A DNA stretch of 44,757 nucleotides from Candidatus Goldiibacteriota bacterium. GTDB taxonomy: Bacteria; Oederibacteriota; JAAXVQ01. Below, one piece after another: positions 33,290 through 40,847 of the stretch. Both the position numbers and the translations under genes were made by a program. The stretch's first letter is position 1. The number at the start of each line of letters is the position of its first letter. The stretch is from NCBI GenBank assembly GCA_020052235.1, contig JAGVPM010000028.1, forward strand, positions 1-44,757. The letters run 5' to 3'. The notes beneath the pieces were generated by a model. It was not told the DNA's origin. It ran no database searches and was given only the letters and a program-made list of their open reading frames with translations.

Positions 33290-35719
33290 CTAACCCTCGG
33301 TTTTGATCTCAAATTCAATCACATCATTTCCTTGGTGCGTCAAAACCGTATACCCCTCTTTGATATCTCCGGTCAGCATCCGTTCGGCCAAGGGATCTTC
33401 CAAGTACCGCTGCACGGCCCGGCGCAGAGGACGGGCGCCCATTTGCGGATTGTACCCTTTTTCAATCAGGAAATCCTTTATCTCGGCGGAAATATTCAAT
33501 GTCACGCCTTTTTCCAAAAGTCGGCGATTTAGCGTCCCCACGATCAATTCCACAATCTGCTCCAGGTGCGAGCGTTCCAAACTGTGGAACACCACCACCT
33601 CGTCGACGCGGTTTAAAAACTCCGGATTAAAAAGTTTTTTAACCTCGCCCATGACCTTATCCTTCATGGTTTGATGCGCCACATCGGCCCCGGCGGATTG
33701 GAATCCCAAACTCCCGCTCTTGTCAATTAACCGGGCGCCCAGGTTGCTGGTCATAATAATGACGGTATTTTTAAAATCCACGGTCCGCCCGTTGTTGTCG
33801 GTCAAGCGGCCGTCTTCCAAAATCTGCAACAGGATGTTAAACACATCCGGATGGGCTTTTTCAATTTCATCGAACAAAATGACCGAATAAGGATTACGGC
33901 GGACTTTTTCCGTCAGCTGCCCGCCTTCGTCATGGCCGATGTATCCCGGGGGCGCTCCCACCAGCCGCGAGACCGCAAATTTCTCCATGTATTCGGACAT
34001 ATCAATGCGTATCAGCGTGGTCTCGTCCTCAAACAAAAACGCAGCCAGCGCCCGGGCCATTTCAGTCTTACCCACACCCGTGGGCCCCAAAAACACAAAC
34101 GATCCGATCGGGCGTTTGGGATCCGCCACTCCGGCACGGGAACGGCGTATGGAGCGCGAAACGGCGCTGATGGCCTCTTCCTGGCCGATAATGCGCTTAT
34201 GCAATTCCGCTTCCATGCGCAGCAGCTTGGCCGATTCTTTTTCTTCCAATTTAAAAATCGGAACTCCGGTCCATTGGCTGATGATTACCGCAATGTCCTC
34301 CCCCGTAACATTGATGACATTTTGGTTGCGGGTTTTTTCCCACTGGCGCTTGATCTCTTCTTTTTTCTGGCGGAAATCCTTGATGCTGTCGCGCAAATGC
34401 GCGGCGCGTTCGAACTCCTGCGCCTTAATGGCCGCTTCTTTTTCCTGATTGATCTTTTCAATTTCGATCTCGATTTCTTTCAAATCCGACGGTATCACAT
34501 TGGAAGAAAGCCGCGTGCGCGCTCCGGCTTCGTCCATCACATCGATGGCCTTATCCGGCAGTAAACGCCCGGAGATGTAACGGTCCGACAAACGCACCGC
34601 CGCCACCAGGGATTCGTCGGTGTAATGCACGCGATGATGCGCCTCGTAGCGGTCGCGCAGTCCTTTAAGAATCTGGATCGCTTCATCGGGACTCGGCGCT
34701 TCAACTTTAATGGATTGGAAACGGCGTTCCAGCGCTCCGTCTTTTTCTATATACTTCCGGTATTCGTCCATGGTGGTGGCGCCGATGCATTGAACTTCAC
34801 CGCGCGCCAGCGCTGGTTTCAGCATGTTCGAAGCGTCGATCGCGCCTTCGGCCGCACCGGCGCCGACGAGGGTATGCAGCTCATCGATAAACAGAATAAT
34901 GGACGACGCCGCGCTTTTAATTTCCTGCATCACGGATTTCAACCGTTCTTCAAATTCCCCGCGGTATTTGGTGCCGGCCACGACCGCCGCCAAATCCAGG
35001 GTCACGATGCGTTTGCCTTGCAGCAATTCCGGCACCAGGTTATTCACGATTTTTTGCGCCAAGCCCTCGGCAATGGCGGTCTTGCCCACGCCGGGCTCGC
35101 CGATCAGCACTGGGTTGTTCTTGGTGCGGCGGCACAATATTTGGATAACCCGTTCAATTTCCGTCTCGCGTCCGATCACGGGATCAAGCTTGGATTCGCG
35201 CGCCAGCTGGGTCAGATCGCGGCCAAATGCATCCAGCGACGGCGTGGTGGTCTTCATCTGCCCCTGGGTGAATTTCGGCAGGTTGCCGCCCAAGAGATAA
35301 ATGGTCATTTCCCGCGCTTTGTCAATCCGGACATTAAACTGCTCCAGCACCTTGGAGGCAACACCCTCGCCTTCGCGGATCAAGCCCAGCAAAATATGTT
35401 CGGTCCCAATGTAATTATGCCCCAGCGCCTGGGCTTCCTCCACGGCCAATTCCAAAACCCGTTTGGCGCGCGGGGTGAAGGGCACCTCGCCCAAGGTCAG
35501 CGTTCCCCCGCCCATATTAATGGATTTTTCAACCTCCAGGCGGATGCGTTCCAAATCCAGCCCCATATTCTCCAGCACCGCCGCAGCCACGCCGCCGCCT
35601 TCGCGGATCAAGCCCAGCAAAATATGTTCGGTCCCGATGTAATCATGCCCCAGCCGCCCGGCTTCTTCGCGGGCGCGATTAATCACTTTTTTTGCGCGCT
35701 CGGTAAATTTGTCGAACAT
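33290..35719 (-). CDS. clpC: ATP-dependent Clp protease ATPase subunit ClpC
   Basis: An 809-residue AAA+ unfoldase for ClpP. Two Clp-N repeats (about 1-145; [14 protein letters not shown] twice) bind phospho-arginine substrates in the family. D1 has GEPGVGKTA and D2 has [13 protein letters not shown]-containing middle coil ([20 protein letters not shown]) and the LGF tripeptide (SGSLGFQ) for docking ClpP are both present. GGAGG lies before the ATG. Together with McsA and McsB it forms the arginine-phosphorylation degradation route, where McsB-tagged proteins go to ClpCP. clpP is not in this window. Confidence 0.97.
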
Positions 35720-35737: not shown

Positions 35738-36793
35738 TTAGAGTTTGACGGCTTTAATTTTTAAGCGGCGCCGGACCAAATCGGCACGCCGCGCAGAAAC
35801 TTGCTCCGGCGTCAACAGTTCGGTTTCCTTCTGCTGAAGATGCGCCGGTTGAATCAGCCAGAGCAATGTCTTTAAATCCAGGGGCGAGGGTTTGGAAATC
35901 AGCCCCGTATCCAGGCCCAATTGCAACGCCGATAAAAGATCCAGGGTTTCTTCCAATCCCAGCAAACGGCAATTGGCCAAGATGCCCGAAGCGCGCGCCA
36001 CCTTATCTTCCAATAGAACCCTCTGTTCGCGCAACAATTTTTCGCAGGCTTTTTCTTCGCGTCCGGCCACTTGCTGCACCACACCCTCCAGGTGCTTGAT
36101 GATCTCAGTTTCGGTTCTTCCCAGGGTAATCTGATTGCCGATTTGGAAATAAGCCGAATGAACGTCCGCTCCCTGGCCGTACAATCCCCGCACGGACAAG
36201 CCGACATGCACCACAGCGTGCAAAACCTCGTTGATTTCCCGGGTTAAGGTCAAAGCCGGCAAATGCAGCAATACCGAAACCCTCAAGCCGGTGCCGACAT
36301 TGGTGGGAAACGAAGTCAAATATCCCAATTTCGGATGAACCGCATATTTAACTTGCCCGCCGATATGTTGGTCCAATTCCATGGCAGCTTCCAGGGCTGG
36401 TGCCAGGTTAAATCCGCCTTTTAAAATCTGGATCCGGCAATGGTCTTCTTCATTCATCAGAATCGACGCGGACTCATCGGGCAAACAGGCCAAGCCCAAA
36501 CCGCGGGGATTGGAAACGGCTTCAGCTGAAATCAAGCCGCGTTCCATCCAAAGCGCGCGTTGCGCATCATTCAAATCCTGAATCCGGGTATGGATCCAAT
36601 CCGGCTGGTTGCGAATCGCCCCCCGGATCATTTCCACGGCCCGGTTTAATTCGCTCTCATCCGCCGCGGCCGGAAACCGCATGTCCGCCAAATTGCGCGC
36701 CAGACGGATGCGCGTCGAAACCACCGGTGTTGGTACTGACTCGGTCAGCAACCAAACCGGCACATCCGCAGACGGAACCTTTTCCCGTCTCAT
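35738..36793 (-). CDS. mcsB: protein arginine kinase McsB with Phe at the catalytic Cys position
   Basis: McsB phosphorylates arginines on proteins, marking them for ClpCP. The 351-residue protein has STRIRLARNL (26-35), NEEDHCRIQ (114-122), GTGLRVSVLLHLPAL, and SVRGLYGQGADVHSAYFQIGNQITLG, which contains the phospho-arginine-binding RGLYGQG. The family segment TSCPTNVGTG reads TSFPTNVGTG here, so Phe162 (codon TTT) replaces the catalytic cysteine. Other catalytic acids appear present. The enzyme may be impaired, act by a variant mechanism, or serve as a phospho-arginine-binding scaffold. The ATG overlaps the mcsA stop, and clpC follows after 18 bases. Confidence 0.95.
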   Translation of the reverse strand: MRREKVPSADVPVWLLTESVPTPVVSTRIRLARNLADMRFPAAADESELNRAVEMIRGAIRNQPDWIHTRIQDLNDAQRALWMERGLISAEAVSNPRGLGLACLPDESASILMNEEDHCRIQILKGGFNLAPALEAAMELDQHIGGQVKYAVHPKLGYLTSFPTNVGTGLRVSVLLHLPALTLTREINEVLHAVVHVGLSVRGLYGQGADVHSAYFQIGNQITLGRTETEIIKHLEGVVQQVAGREEKACEKLLREQRVLLEDKVARASGILANCRLLGLEETLDLLSALQLGLDTGLISKPSPLDLKTLLWLIQPAHLQQKETELLTPEQVSARRADLVRRRLKIKAVKL

Positions 36794-37293
36794 GCTTCAC
36801 CTTCGTTTTTATCCCAAAGTCTCATTTGATCGCGCAAGCGCGCAGCCAATTCATAATCCTCAGCCGCCACAGCGGTCTTAATTTTTTCTTTCAGGCCGCG
36901 TGCTTCAGAAGATTCCTCCGCCTCCGGCGCGGCTGCATCCAAACGGCCCCGGTGTTCTTCGGCCTGATGATATTGGCGCAGCAAAGGCGCGAGCGCTTCA
37001 TAAAACACATCATAGCATTGGCTGCACCCCAAACGCCCGGTTTCGCGGAATTGGGCATAGGTCAGGCCGCAGCGCGGACACACCAAGGTGGGGGCCACGG
37101 GATTCAGCGCCGTTCCCAGCGAAACCACGGAAGCCAACAACTGCTGCAGGGTCAACGCCGACCGGTTCAAAACTTCACCCACGTGCCGGCGTTGGGCGCA
37201 ATTTTCACAGATATGAAACGTGGTTTGGGTGTTGTCCACGGTTTCAATCAGATAAACCGAAGCTTCCTGAACATGACAAATTTGGCAAAGCAT
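36790..37293 (-). CDS. mcsA: McsA-like zinc-binding activator of McsB
   Basis: A 167-residue protein with four CxxC pairs: CQIC (3-6), HICENC, VCPRCGLTYAQF and LGCSQCYDVF, expected to bind zinc, and a C-terminal UVR-type helical pair (KTAVAAEDYELAARLRDQMRLWDK). McsA activates McsB in Firmicutes. GGAGT stands upstream of the ATG; lolD ends outside its frame 11 bases before. No CtsR repressor gene precedes it, unlike the Firmicute ctsR-mcsA-mcsB-clpC operon. Confidence 0.95.
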   Translation of the reverse strand: MLCQICHVQEASVYLIETVDNTQTTFHICENCAQRRHVGEVLNRSALTLQQLLASVVSLGTALNPVAPTLVCPRCGLTYAQFRETGRLGCSQCYDVFYEALAPLLRQYHQAEEHRGRLDAAAPEAEESSEARGLKEKIKTAVAAEDYELAARLRDQMRLWDKNEGEA

Positions 37294-37304
37294 GATAACT
37301 CCTT

Positions 37305-37979
37305 TTAAACCACCAAACCGTCGCGCAGGGTAATCAACCGGTCCGCCAAGCGCGACAAGTCCGGGCTGTGCGTTACCATCACAATGGAACGTTTTTCATC
37401 CCGGTGCAATTGAATTAAAATTTCATGAATCCCTTGGGCGGTTTGCACATCCAAATCTCCGGTAGGTTCATCGGCCAACAGGATGGCGGGATCATTCATC
37501 AAAGCCCTGGCAATGGCCACCCGCTGCTGTTCTCCGCCCGAAAGTTCGCCGGGGCGGTGTTCCATGCGGTCACCCAGCCCCACGCGTTCCAGCAGCATCT
37601 TCGCGCGCGGCCGGGTTTTTTCTTCAAAATCACCGGCCATCCCGGCGGGCAGCATGACGTTTTCCAACGCCGAAAACTCCGGCAACAGATGGTGCAATTG
37701 GAATATAAAACCAATTTTGCGATTCCGGACGCGGGCCAGCTGGACATCGTCCAATTGCTGGAATTCCCCGCCATCCAAGATCACTTTTCCCGTGGTAGCG
37801 TGCATCAAGCCGCAGGCAATGTGAAGCAGCGTGGATTTCCCGGCTCCGGACGGACCCATGATGGCCACCCACTCGCCGCGCTGTATTTCAATATCAATCC
37901 CCTTCAAGACCGCCAACGTCCGGCCGCCTTGATGAAATTCTTTCACAATGCGCTCCAGGCGCAGAATCGTCTCATTCAT
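37305..37979 (-). CDS. lolD: lipoprotein-release ABC transporter ATPase LolD
   Basis: A 224-residue ATPase that powers release of lipoproteins from the inner membrane. The start is the ATG at 37979 (MNETILRLE), overlapping the lolC stop; the longer open frame upstream runs inside lolC. Walker A GPSGAGKST, Q-loop FIFQLHHLLPEFSALENVMLP, signature LSGGEQQRVAIARAL, Walker B ILLADEPTGDLD and H-loop MVTHS are intact. The FQ..HLLPEF segment is characteristic of LolD rather than MacB or FtsE. Confidence 0.96.
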   Translation of the reverse strand: MNETILRLERIVKEFHQGGRTLAVLKGIDIEIQRGEWVAIMGPSGAGKSTLLHIACGLMHATTGKVILDGGEFQQLDDVQLARVRNRKIGFIFQLHHLLPEFSALENVMLPAGMAGDFEEKTRPRAKMLLERVGLGDRMEHRPGELSGGEQQRVAIARALMNDPAILLADEPTGDLDVQTAQGIHEILIQLHRDEKRSIVMVTHSPDLSRLADRLITLRDGLVV

Positions 37980-39225
37980 AGCGGATGGCTTCCACCGGAT
38001 CAAGCCGTGAGGCTTGCCAGGCCGGATAAAAAGTCGAAAGCAAACAAACGACCACGGCCGTTGCCGTGATGATCGCCACATCGCTCCCCTGGGTGGCCAC
38101 GGGCAGATTTTCAATGTAATAAACGCTGCCGCCCCCGGGAATATGCAGGGGATAAAGTTTCAATATCAGGCAGGCAACCAAACCGCCGGTCAAGCCCAAC
38201 AGGGTTCCGCTCAAGCCCACCAGGGAGCCTTCCCACATAAAAATCCGCATAATCATTCCGCGATCGGCACCGATGGCTTTCAATATGCCGATATCTTTTT
38301 TCTTTTCCATGACCACCATGATGAGGGTTGAGGCAATGTTGAACGCCGCCACCATGACAATCAAAATCAGAATAATGAACATCATCATTTTTTCAACTTT
38401 CAACGCCGTGGCCAGATTGCGGTTCATGGACATAAAATCGCGGGCCCAATAATCATTGCCGTCTTTTTGCAAATCATCCGCAATTTGCGCTGCTGCTTCC
38501 AAGTGCTTAACCCGGATGGAAAAGCCATTGACGGCATTCGGCAATTCGAACAACTGCTGGATGGTCTCCAAGGATACATAGGCAAAATTAGCATCGTATT
38601 CATACATGCCCGCTTCAAAAACACCGACCACTTGAAACGTAGCCATCTTGGGCATTGTACCTGCTGCCGTGACCTTGAACACCGGCGCCACCACCGTAAG
38701 TTCATCCCCGGTGAGCAAGCCCATTTTCCGGGCAATCTCTGATCCCAGGATTATCCCACAGCCCCGCAAAGGATTGTTGCCCGGCTTGGGTGCTTGATTC
38801 AGCGCAGCCAGGGAACCGGTTTTTAAATTTTTAGCCAGCTGGGTAACTTGCGCTTCACGTTTGGGTTCAATGCCCCAAAGCATAACGCCTTGAACTTGCT
38901 GGTCGTGTTTGAGCATAACTTGGTTGGCCAAATAAGGAGAAACCGCCGCCACCCCCGGATGCGCTTCGGCGCGGCGTAAAACTTTTTTCCAATCCTGAAT
39001 TCCGCCGCGATCGTAGCTGGCAATGATGACGTGGGCCTGGGTATCAATTATTTTCGAACGGATATCGTTTTGAAAACCATTCATGACGGACAATACCACA
39101 ATTAACGCCATAACCCCCAAAGCCACACCGGCGACCGAAATCACGGAGATCAAAGAAATAAACGTCTGGCGGCGTTTGGCTTTGAGATACCGCAAGCCAA
39201 CGTAAAGTTCAAACGGTATGCGCAC
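37972..39225 (-). CDS. lolC: lipoprotein-release transporter permease LolC/LolE
   Basis: The start is the GTG at 39225 (VRIPFELYVGLRYLKAKRRQ) with GAGGTG upstream, giving 417 residues. An N-terminal helix (about 20-45, ISLISVISVAGVALGVMALIVVLSVMNGF), a periplasmic MacB-like domain (about 48-265) and three C-terminal helices (MMMFIILILIVMVAAFNIASTLIMVVMEKKKDIGILKAIG and onward) define a LolCE-type protein. The end PVEAIRYE is typical. It probably dimerises as the only permease here and works with LolD, whose gene overlaps it by 8 bases. Confidence 0.95.
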   Translation of the reverse strand: MRIPFELYVGLRYLKAKRRQTFISLISVISVAGVALGVMALIVVLSVMNGFQNDIRSKIIDTQAHVIIASYDRGGIQDWKKVLRRAEAHPGVAAVSPYLANQVMLKHDQQVQGVMLWGIEPKREAQVTQLAKNLKTGSLAALNQAPKPGNNPLRGCGIILGSEIARKMGLLTGDELTVVAPVFKVTAAGTMPKMATFQVVGVFEAGMYEYDANFAYVSLETIQQLFELPNAVNGFSIRVKHLEAAAQIADDLQKDGNDYWARDFMSMNRNLATALKVEKMMMFIILILIVMVAAFNIASTLIMVVMEKKKDIGILKAIGADRGMIMRIFMWEGSLVGLSGTLLGLTGGLVACLILKLYPLHIPGGGSVYYIENLPVATQGSDVAIITATAVVVCLLSTFYPAWQASRLDPVEAIRYE

Positions 39226-39248
39226 AATCACCTCGAAAAAAAATAATT

Positions 39249-39276
39249 GTAGGGGCGTATTGCAATACGCCCCTAC
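39249..39276. repeat. 28-bp perfect palindrome, GTAGGGGCG type
   Basis: GTAGGGGCGTATTG (39249-39262) is followed directly by its inverted copy (39263-39276). It shares length and ends with the palindrome at 20402-20429. It lies between lysS and lolC; on the minus strand a T-rich run (complement of the A run 39237-39244) follows six bases later, so it may also attenuate transcription. Confidence 0.93.
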
Positions 39277-39311
39277 GATTGAATTAAGACCCCCAACCGC
39301 CGTCCAGTTCA

Positions 39312-40847
39312 TTAAACCGGATTGGCGGATTCATCCTCTGGTGTTTCTTCCGATGTTTCATCATCATCGGACGGGATATGAATCTGGCGCATCTGCGGAA
39401 ATAAAATGACTTCCCGGATGGAGGGCGAATCGGTCAGAAGCATCACCAAACGGTCAATGCCCACGCCCAAACCTCCGGCCGGCGGCAATCCGTACTCCAA
39501 AGCCCGGACATAATCCAAGTCCGCCACATGCGCTTCTTCATCCCCGGCTTCGCGTTGCTGCATTTGCCCCTCGAAGCGCTGGTACTGATCCACCGGATCG
39601 CTCAATTCCGAAAAACCGTTGGCAAATTCATGCCCCACGATATACGGTTCAAACCGGTCCGCCAAATGAGGCGCACCGGGTTTGCATTTGGCCAGGGGCG
39701 AAATCTCGATGGGAAAATCCACCAGAAACGTCGGCTGAATCAATTTGGGTTCCACCAAATATTTAAACAGCAAATCAAACAACTCCGCCTTGCCCATTTT
39801 TTCACTCGCGGAAATTTTATGCTCGCGGCACAAGGCCCGCAGGCGCTCCGGGGTTTGGTTCCAAGCATCTTCCCCCACCGCTTCCTGCATGGCGCCTTGC
39901 ATGGTTATCCTGCGCCAGGGCGCAGCCAATTGAAGTTTCTGCCCCTGATAAACAATCTCCGTGCTCCCGTGAATGATTTTGGCCAAATGCGCGAATAAAT
40001 TTTCGGTCAATTCCATCATGGCCGCGCCGTCCACATAGGCTTGGTACGCTTCGAGCATGGTAAATTCCGGATTATGCATGGTGCTGATGCCTTCGTTGCG
40101 GAAATTGCGGTTGATCTCATACACTTTTTCAAACCCGCCGACCAAAAGGCGCTTCAAATATAATTCCGGGGCAATGCGCAGGAATAAATCGCGATCCAAC
40201 GCATTGTGATGGGTGATAAAAGGGCGCGCCGCCGCGCCGCCGGCCAGCGGATGCATCATGGGCGTTTCCACTTCCAAAAAACCCAGCCCGTCAAAATACG
40301 CGCGAATTTCTTTTACAATGCGGGACCGCTGCAGGAAAATCCAGCGCGTCCGTTCATTGGACAATAAATCCAAGTAGCGCTGGCGATAGCGGACCTCGAC
40401 ATCTTTGATCCCATGCCACTTCTCGGGCATGGGACGCACGGCTTTGGTTAAAAGCGTAAACTCATCCACGCGCACGGTCAATTCACCGGCATGCGTGCGG
40501 AAAACCGGGCCTTTAACCCCGAGAAAATCGCCCATATCAATGTAGTGTTTTAAAAGTTCAAAACGTTCCGGGCCCAAACCATCACGCCGGAAATAGAGCT
40601 GAACCCGCCCGCTGTCGTCCTGCACATGGGAAAAAATCGTTTTCCCGTGCGCGCGCATGGGCTGCAAACGCCCGGCCAAGGAAACAATTTCCCCGGACAT
40701 TTGCTCGCCGGTGAGTGACGCAAATTGGTCCAACACCTGAATGGCGCGATGAGTGCGGGCGTATTGATAAGCGTAAGGTTCCACGCCCTGTTCCCTGAGT
40801 TTTTGGATTTTTTCCAACCGTTGCTGAATAAGTTCGCGTTCCGACAC
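39312..40847 (-). CDS. lysS: lysyl-tRNA synthetase, class II
   Basis: A 511-residue enzyme that charges tRNA-Lys. It starts at a GTG with AAGGAG upstream. The N-terminal OB-fold (about 50-165) is followed by class II motif 1 (FFDGLGFLEVETPMMHPLAGGAAARPF region), motif 2 (FRNEGISTMHNPEFTMLEAYQAY) and motif 3 (GLGVGIDRLVMLLTDSPSIREVILFP). The C-terminal extension is acidic (DDDETSEETPEDES). No T-box leader is visible. It begins the lysS-lolC-lolD-mcsAB-clpC-tamB run. Confidence 0.97.
   Translation of the reverse strand: MSERELIQQRLEKIQKLREQGVEPYAYQYARTHRAIQVLDQFASLTGEQMSGEIVSLAGRLQPMRAHGKTIFSHVQDDSGRVQLYFRRDGLGPERFELLKHYIDMGDFLGVKGPVFRTHAGELTVRVDEFTLLTKAVRPMPEKWHGIKDVEVRYRQRYLDLLSNERTRWIFLQRSRIVKEIRAYFDGLGFLEVETPMMHPLAGGAAARPFITHHNALDRDLFLRIAPELYLKRLLVGGFEKVYEINRNFRNEGISTMHNPEFTMLEAYQAYVDGAAMMELTENLFAHLAKIIHGSTEIVYQGQKLQLAAPWRRITMQGAMQEAVGEDAWNQTPERLRALCREHKISASEKMGKAELFDLLFKYLVEPKLIQPTFLVDFPIEISPLAKCKPGAPHLADRFEPYIVGHEFANGFSELSDPVDQYQRFEGQMQQREAGDEEAHVADLDYVRALEYGLPPAGGLGVGIDRLVMLLTDSPSIREVILFPQMRQIHIPSDDDETSEETPEDESANPV

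Follow-up and report, generated by a model that had tools for sequence, protein, structure and literature searches.

The closest described systems for the protein considered here are the McsB proteins of Bacillus subtilis and Geobacillus stearothermophilus. In arginine kinase, the guanidinium group of the substrate is held by Glu225, Glu314, and Cys271 (PMC11075012), and in B. subtilis McsB, R337 and D338 serve as the receptor for phospho-arginine (pArg) (PMC8370763). How far the adaptor role of McsB depends on its kinase activity is unsettled, as the two are hard to separate in B. subtilis (PMC5506225), and partial hints come from the kinase-inactive C167S mutant, in which the half-life of MgsR is 12.3 min compared with 17.7 min in an mcsB deletion, a faster degradation that the authors attributed to an adaptor function independent of kinase activity (PMC7235348). 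A literature search, which covered few subscription papers, returned no description of a natural pseudokinase McsB.

The window analyzed here, a 44,757-nucleotide stretch of DNA from a Candidatus Goldiibacteriota bacterium (contig JAGVPM010000028.1, assembly GCA_020052235.1), carries an McsB ortholog, as seen from the fold of its phosphagen-kinase and C-terminal dimerization/pArg domains and from its operon with mcsA and clpC (Table 1). The phosphagen-kinase domain PF00217 is matched with 175.9 bits, the gene is the sole phosphagen-kinase gene detected in the genome, and the AlphaFold model of the protein (mean pLDDT 90.4, with a lower value of 69 in the lid block at residues ~201-210) has the McsB structures 6tv6 and 6fh3 as its best full-length PDB matches in Foldseek (TM 0.91-0.92). 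The similarity to the B. subtilis and G. stearothermophilus proteins (6tv6, 6fh1-6fh3) thus covers the full-length fold at ~40% identity, together with the mcsA-mcsB-clpC order, the NEEDH motif, and the phosphate-binding arginines, whereas the differences comprise Phe in place of Cys, Gln in place of the lid Glu, the loss of R337/D338, and genomes in which neither CtsR nor YwlE was found. A score of 334.8 against the NCBIfam protein arginine kinase model (NF002194, curated cut-off 385) was rejected as a sign of lost function since catalytically intact members of the same order (order-mates) also miss the cut-off (356.8-377.4, four scanned).

Table 1. Features of the mcsA-mcsB-clpC locus and its neighbors in the window
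Feature	Coordinates	Strand	Basis or remark
mcsB-like gene, probable pseudokinase, 351 aa, ATG start	35738..36793	-	ORF, profile match, AlphaFold fold
Phe162 codon TTT, at the catalytic Cys position (B. subtilis C167, arginine kinase C271)	36308..36310	-	alignment
Gln207 codon CAG, at the second catalytic Glu position (McsB E212, arginine kinase E314)	36173..36175	-	alignment
Glu115-Glu116 of NEEDH, first catalytic Glu kept	36446..36451	-	alignment
VSARRA at the pArg-receptor motif RDxxRA (R337, D338, R341 of B. subtilis/Geobacillus McsB)	35783..35800	-	alignment
mcsA; zinc-finger CxxC..CxxC twice kept, UVR motif	36790..37293	-	overlaps mcsB by ATGA
clpC, 809 aa; both N-domain GTEHILLG stretches kept	33290..35719	-	
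lolD-like ABC ATPase, upstream neighbor; order conserved in order-mates	37305..37979	-	
lolC/E-like permease, upstream neighbor	37972..39312	-	
lysS, rate control	39312..40847	-	

The gene order lysS-lolC-lolD-mcsA-mcsB-clpC-tamB is common to the window and the order-mates, and its mcsA-mcsB-clpC portion is identical in the same-genus genome G001 and five order-mates. The reading frames are intact and the mcsA-mcsB overlap is kept. The view taken in a preliminary description of the window, that mcsA and clpC are in place and that the operon is not a wreck, holds. Substitutions specific to the family in the ClpC N-domain are mostly conservative, and the kept GTEHILLG stretches say little either way, as they may be kept for other reasons. 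CtsR was searched for in all eight order members (G000-G007) and found in none of them; the order thus has mcsA-mcsB-clpC but not the classical McsB client, and CtsR was rejected as a client of this protein.

The analysis of the catalytic site reveals two losses. The preliminary description had reported Phe162 in place of the catalytic Cys, and alignment to G. stearothermophilus McsB (6fh1) agrees, placing this residue of TSFPTNVGTG on the Cys of SCPTNVGTG. The same description had regarded the rest of the active site as intact and RGLYGQG as the pArg pocket; this stretch is in fact the lid motif of the catalytic site, RGxxGE, in which the second catalytic Glu is replaced by Gln207. Of the trio that grips the guanidinium, window McsB has therefore kept Glu116, the equivalent of arginine kinase E225, and lost two of three residues, one of them to a bulky aromatic. 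The phosphate-binding arginines (R124, R126, R229, R280, and R309 in arginine kinase) are all present, as R28, R30, R120, R171, and R202. A search of the McsB sequence for a compensating Cys or Ser gave no convincing candidate, as Ser161, adjoining Phe162, is ordinary for the family and also present in G. stearothermophilus McsB, and Cys119 is Phe in G001. Across positions at least 95% conserved elsewhere, window McsB breaks five (two in the active site) and G001 six (four in the active site), while the order-mates show no such breaks at catalytic residues.

The real pArg pocket, the C-terminal RDxxRA motif, is not intact as had been described, since R337 and D338 are lost (V332-S333 here) and only R341 is kept. 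This motif is degraded across the whole order, including order-mates of FCPU426 family f2 (L004-L008). The f2 McsB proteins (e.g., JAUXBQ010000064.1) resemble window McsB in their operon, their 46-51% identity, and the degraded receptor, and differ from it in their intact Cys and Glu and in a YwlE-like phosphatase found in four of five genomes. Because the receptor is just as degraded in the order-mates with Cys and Glu in place, its loss is older than, and separate from, the catalytic loss, which suggests that allosteric pArg control may have been lost before catalysis in this order.

These observations were further strengthened by the sister genome. The window genome belongs to family f1 of the candidate phylum FCPU426. 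Among the genomes compared, two species represent this family, the window genome (G000, 99.33% complete) and G001 (84% complete), whose McsB proteins are 55% identical; both are encoded by intact frames free of stops and frameshifts. The alignment of related McsB proteins, which the preliminary description had proposed together with the idea that Cys in relatives would mark Phe162 as a single-base error, gave a different picture, as the nearest relative, G001, has Tyr (TAT) at the catalytic Cys and His (CAT) at the lid Glu, while all five order-mates with McsB keep both Cys and Glu. G001 further has Gly at the arginine equivalent to arginine kinase R309, and the first Glu of its NEEDH motif is Asp. 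As TTT and TAT, like CAG and CAT, are each one base apart, the simplest history is that both residues were lost in the common ancestor and that drift followed, which would have run between the aromatics Phe and Tyr and between Gln and His. Among 116 aligned rows of other McsB sequences, Cys is present in 112 (the exceptions being the Tyr of G001, fetched twice, and two distant Ser) and the lid Glu in 113 (G001, again fetched twice, providing two of the exceptions); part of this sample came from a pattern search allowing Cys/Phe/Tyr or NEEDH, so these frequencies are a guide and not a rate. McsB relatives in genome contigs were found with an alignment as query, while a single-protein scan gave none.

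By searching 45 FCPU426 genomes (G000-G044) with an order-mate protein as query, strong YwlE-like matches, nearly all carrying the CTGN[T/S/A]CRS motif, were found in 20 of the 22 genomes whose McsB is catalytically intact versus 4 of 21 genomes without McsB (Fisher p = 2e-6), these four being only 76-89% complete. McsB and the YwlE-like phosphatase are thus strongly associated across the phylum, whereas nearly all of the genomes encode ClpC, also those of families that have no McsB. In several FCPU426 families, ClpC is present but McsB and YwlE are both absent, indicating that ClpC can do without this system and that losing the system entirely is an established end state. A YwlE-type pArg phosphatase was found in neither of the two f1 genomes, compared with 20/22 of the intact-McsB genomes (Fisher p = 0.02), a comparison that rests mainly on the window genome as there are only two genomes and the other is 84% complete. 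The single low-molecular-weight (LMW) phosphatase homolog of each f1 genome is ArsC-like, with the motif CIHNSARSQMAEA. By this test, f1 looks like genomes without McsB altogether.

Evolutionary rates reveal that constraint on McsB has shifted without disappearing. Relative to the LysS distance, the McsB distance is 7.3 in f1 versus 1.73-1.79 in four order-mate comparisons (~4-fold faster), and the McsA distance is 5.3 versus 1.5-2.2 (~3 times faster), whereas ClpC is not accelerated. Between the two f1 genomes, four genes have a dS of 1.6-2.0 and a short lolD fragment one of 2.4, and omega (dN/dS) is 0.017 for ClpC, 0.042 for LysS, 0.059 for LolD (81 codons), and 0.15 for McsA. For McsB, omega is 0.23 at a dS of ~1.6 (2dlnL of 79 against omega = 1). 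McsB is thus accelerated but remains well below an omega of 1, so that constraint is relaxed or changed, yet present, and McsB is still under purifying selection in f1.

In our judgment, the protein is probably a natural McsB pseudokinase whose arginine-phosphate chemistry has been abandoned and which is kept as a non-catalytic McsA-McsB adaptor or regulator of ClpC. According to this proposal, the common ancestor of f1 would have lost Cys and the lid Glu, which act with Glu116 in gripping and activating the target arginine, and the cognate phosphatase YwlE would have disappeared, such that arginine phosphorylation would be neither written nor erased. McsB has meanwhile kept its predicted fold and its operon place between McsA and ClpC, is still under purifying selection, and together with McsA may bind ClpC and/or clients, acting as an adaptor or as a holdase/inhibitor of ClpC, possibly with nucleotide switching in the window species, where all phosphate-binding arginines remain. 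We infer with good confidence that useful arginine kinase activity has been lost; with moderate confidence, weaker than that for the loss of the kinase, we propose that McsB acts together with McsA on ClpC in a non-enzymatic way. Of the two options in the preliminary description, a reader or adaptor role is the better one and provides the best reading. In a broader and more tentative version, which we hold at somewhat under an even chance, the lineage could have given up both the phospho-arginine writer chemistry and its eraser while keeping McsA-McsB as a structural, phosphorylation-independent regulator of ClpC, implying that the adaptor role can stand alone. Some arginine kinase mutants at the C271 and E314 positions keep weak activity. 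Weighing against the proposal, the arginine kinase mutants C271A and E314D do fold and have solved structures (1sd0, 1p52), and McsB stimulation of ClpC was reported to require kinase activity in B. subtilis (reviewed in PMC5506225). The laboratory mutant C167S resembles window McsB in having no catalytic Cys and is reported to keep part of the MgsR-turnover role (PMC7235348), whereas the protein here differs from that point mutant in representing a natural state, in two species, with the additional loss of Glu and YwlE.

The main rival explanation, which we consider unlikely, is that arginine phosphorylation was given up and that mcsA and mcsB are slowly decaying relics with no important function, their intact frames reflecting a lag. 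The three- to fourfold faster change of McsB and McsA relative to LysS would fit such decay, as would the existence of its end state in the FCPU426 families that have ClpC without McsB and YwlE. However, the McsB omega is significantly below 1 over a dS of ~1.6, the frame is uninterrupted in both genomes, with neither stops nor frameshifts, the losses are concentrated in the active site and not spread across conserved positions, and the zinc-finger cysteines of mcsA are kept.

It is less probable still that the protein remains an arginine kinase that can do without Cys and the lid Glu and catalyzes slowly by means of Glu116 and the arginines. NEEDH and all phosphate-binding arginines are intact in window McsB, and in another family, f22, Cys is replaced by Ser while YwlE-like proteins are still encoded, so that Cys itself may be replaceable. 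Nevertheless, the two species have each lost Cys and the lid Glu, with which the substrate would be gripped, and have a bulky aromatic in the pocket; G001 is also without the R309 equivalent, YwlE is gone, the sequences offer no compensating Cys, and the C167S form of B. subtilis McsB is reported to be kinase-inactive (PMC7235348). Given the second catalytic loss, the further loss in G001, and the absence of YwlE from the f1 genomes searched, the suggestion in the preliminary description that Cys is dispensable is unlikely. A new enzymatic or ligand-binding function, with the pocket remodeled for another guanidine or serving as a nucleotide sensor, is highly improbable; the ATP-site arginines kept in the window genome and the aromatic conserved at the old Cys site would suit it, but one phosphate-binding Arg is lost in G001 and no other positive evidence was found. 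A sequencing or assembly error, although TGT and TTT differ by one base, has a negligible probability: the gene carries another, independent catalytic loss, and the separate genome G001 has lost the corresponding residues through different codons, with its Tyr falling at the same site.

If the pseudokinase reading is right, f1 would mark an intermediate stage in evolution between ClpC lineages that use phospho-arginine tagging and those that do not. A natural McsB lacking both catalysis and its phosphatase would allow a kinase-independent role to be tested with evolved and not engineered proteins, and the label "protein arginine kinase" that annotation pipelines give to proteins of this sort can mislead.

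Further McsB proteins without the catalytic Cys were observed elsewhere. In f22, Ser occupies this position in all four genomes (G050 L028/L172, G059 L175, G061 L176, and G060 L177), and the lid Glu is kept in two of the four and is Asp in the others (one genus only). These proteins resemble window McsB in the lost Cys and in the mcsA-mcsB-clpC order, seen in G050, but differ in the conservative nature of the Ser, in the Glu kept in two of four, and in the retained phosphatase, as f22 retains CTGN[T/A]CRSPMAEG proteins with a YwlE-like domain inside a 410-439 aa open frame. With that phosphatase kept, the Ser-type McsB of f22 may well be active. The single genomes G047 (L187/L029), G064 (L190), and G072 (L186) have Arg, Ser, and Ser, respectively, at the McsB Cys; these proteins are divergent, with NTSDH or NGEDH in two of them and VVNFVHDES in G064. 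Solely ArsC-like LMW phosphatases were found in G064, which together with its degenerate McsB makes it a further pseudokinase candidate.
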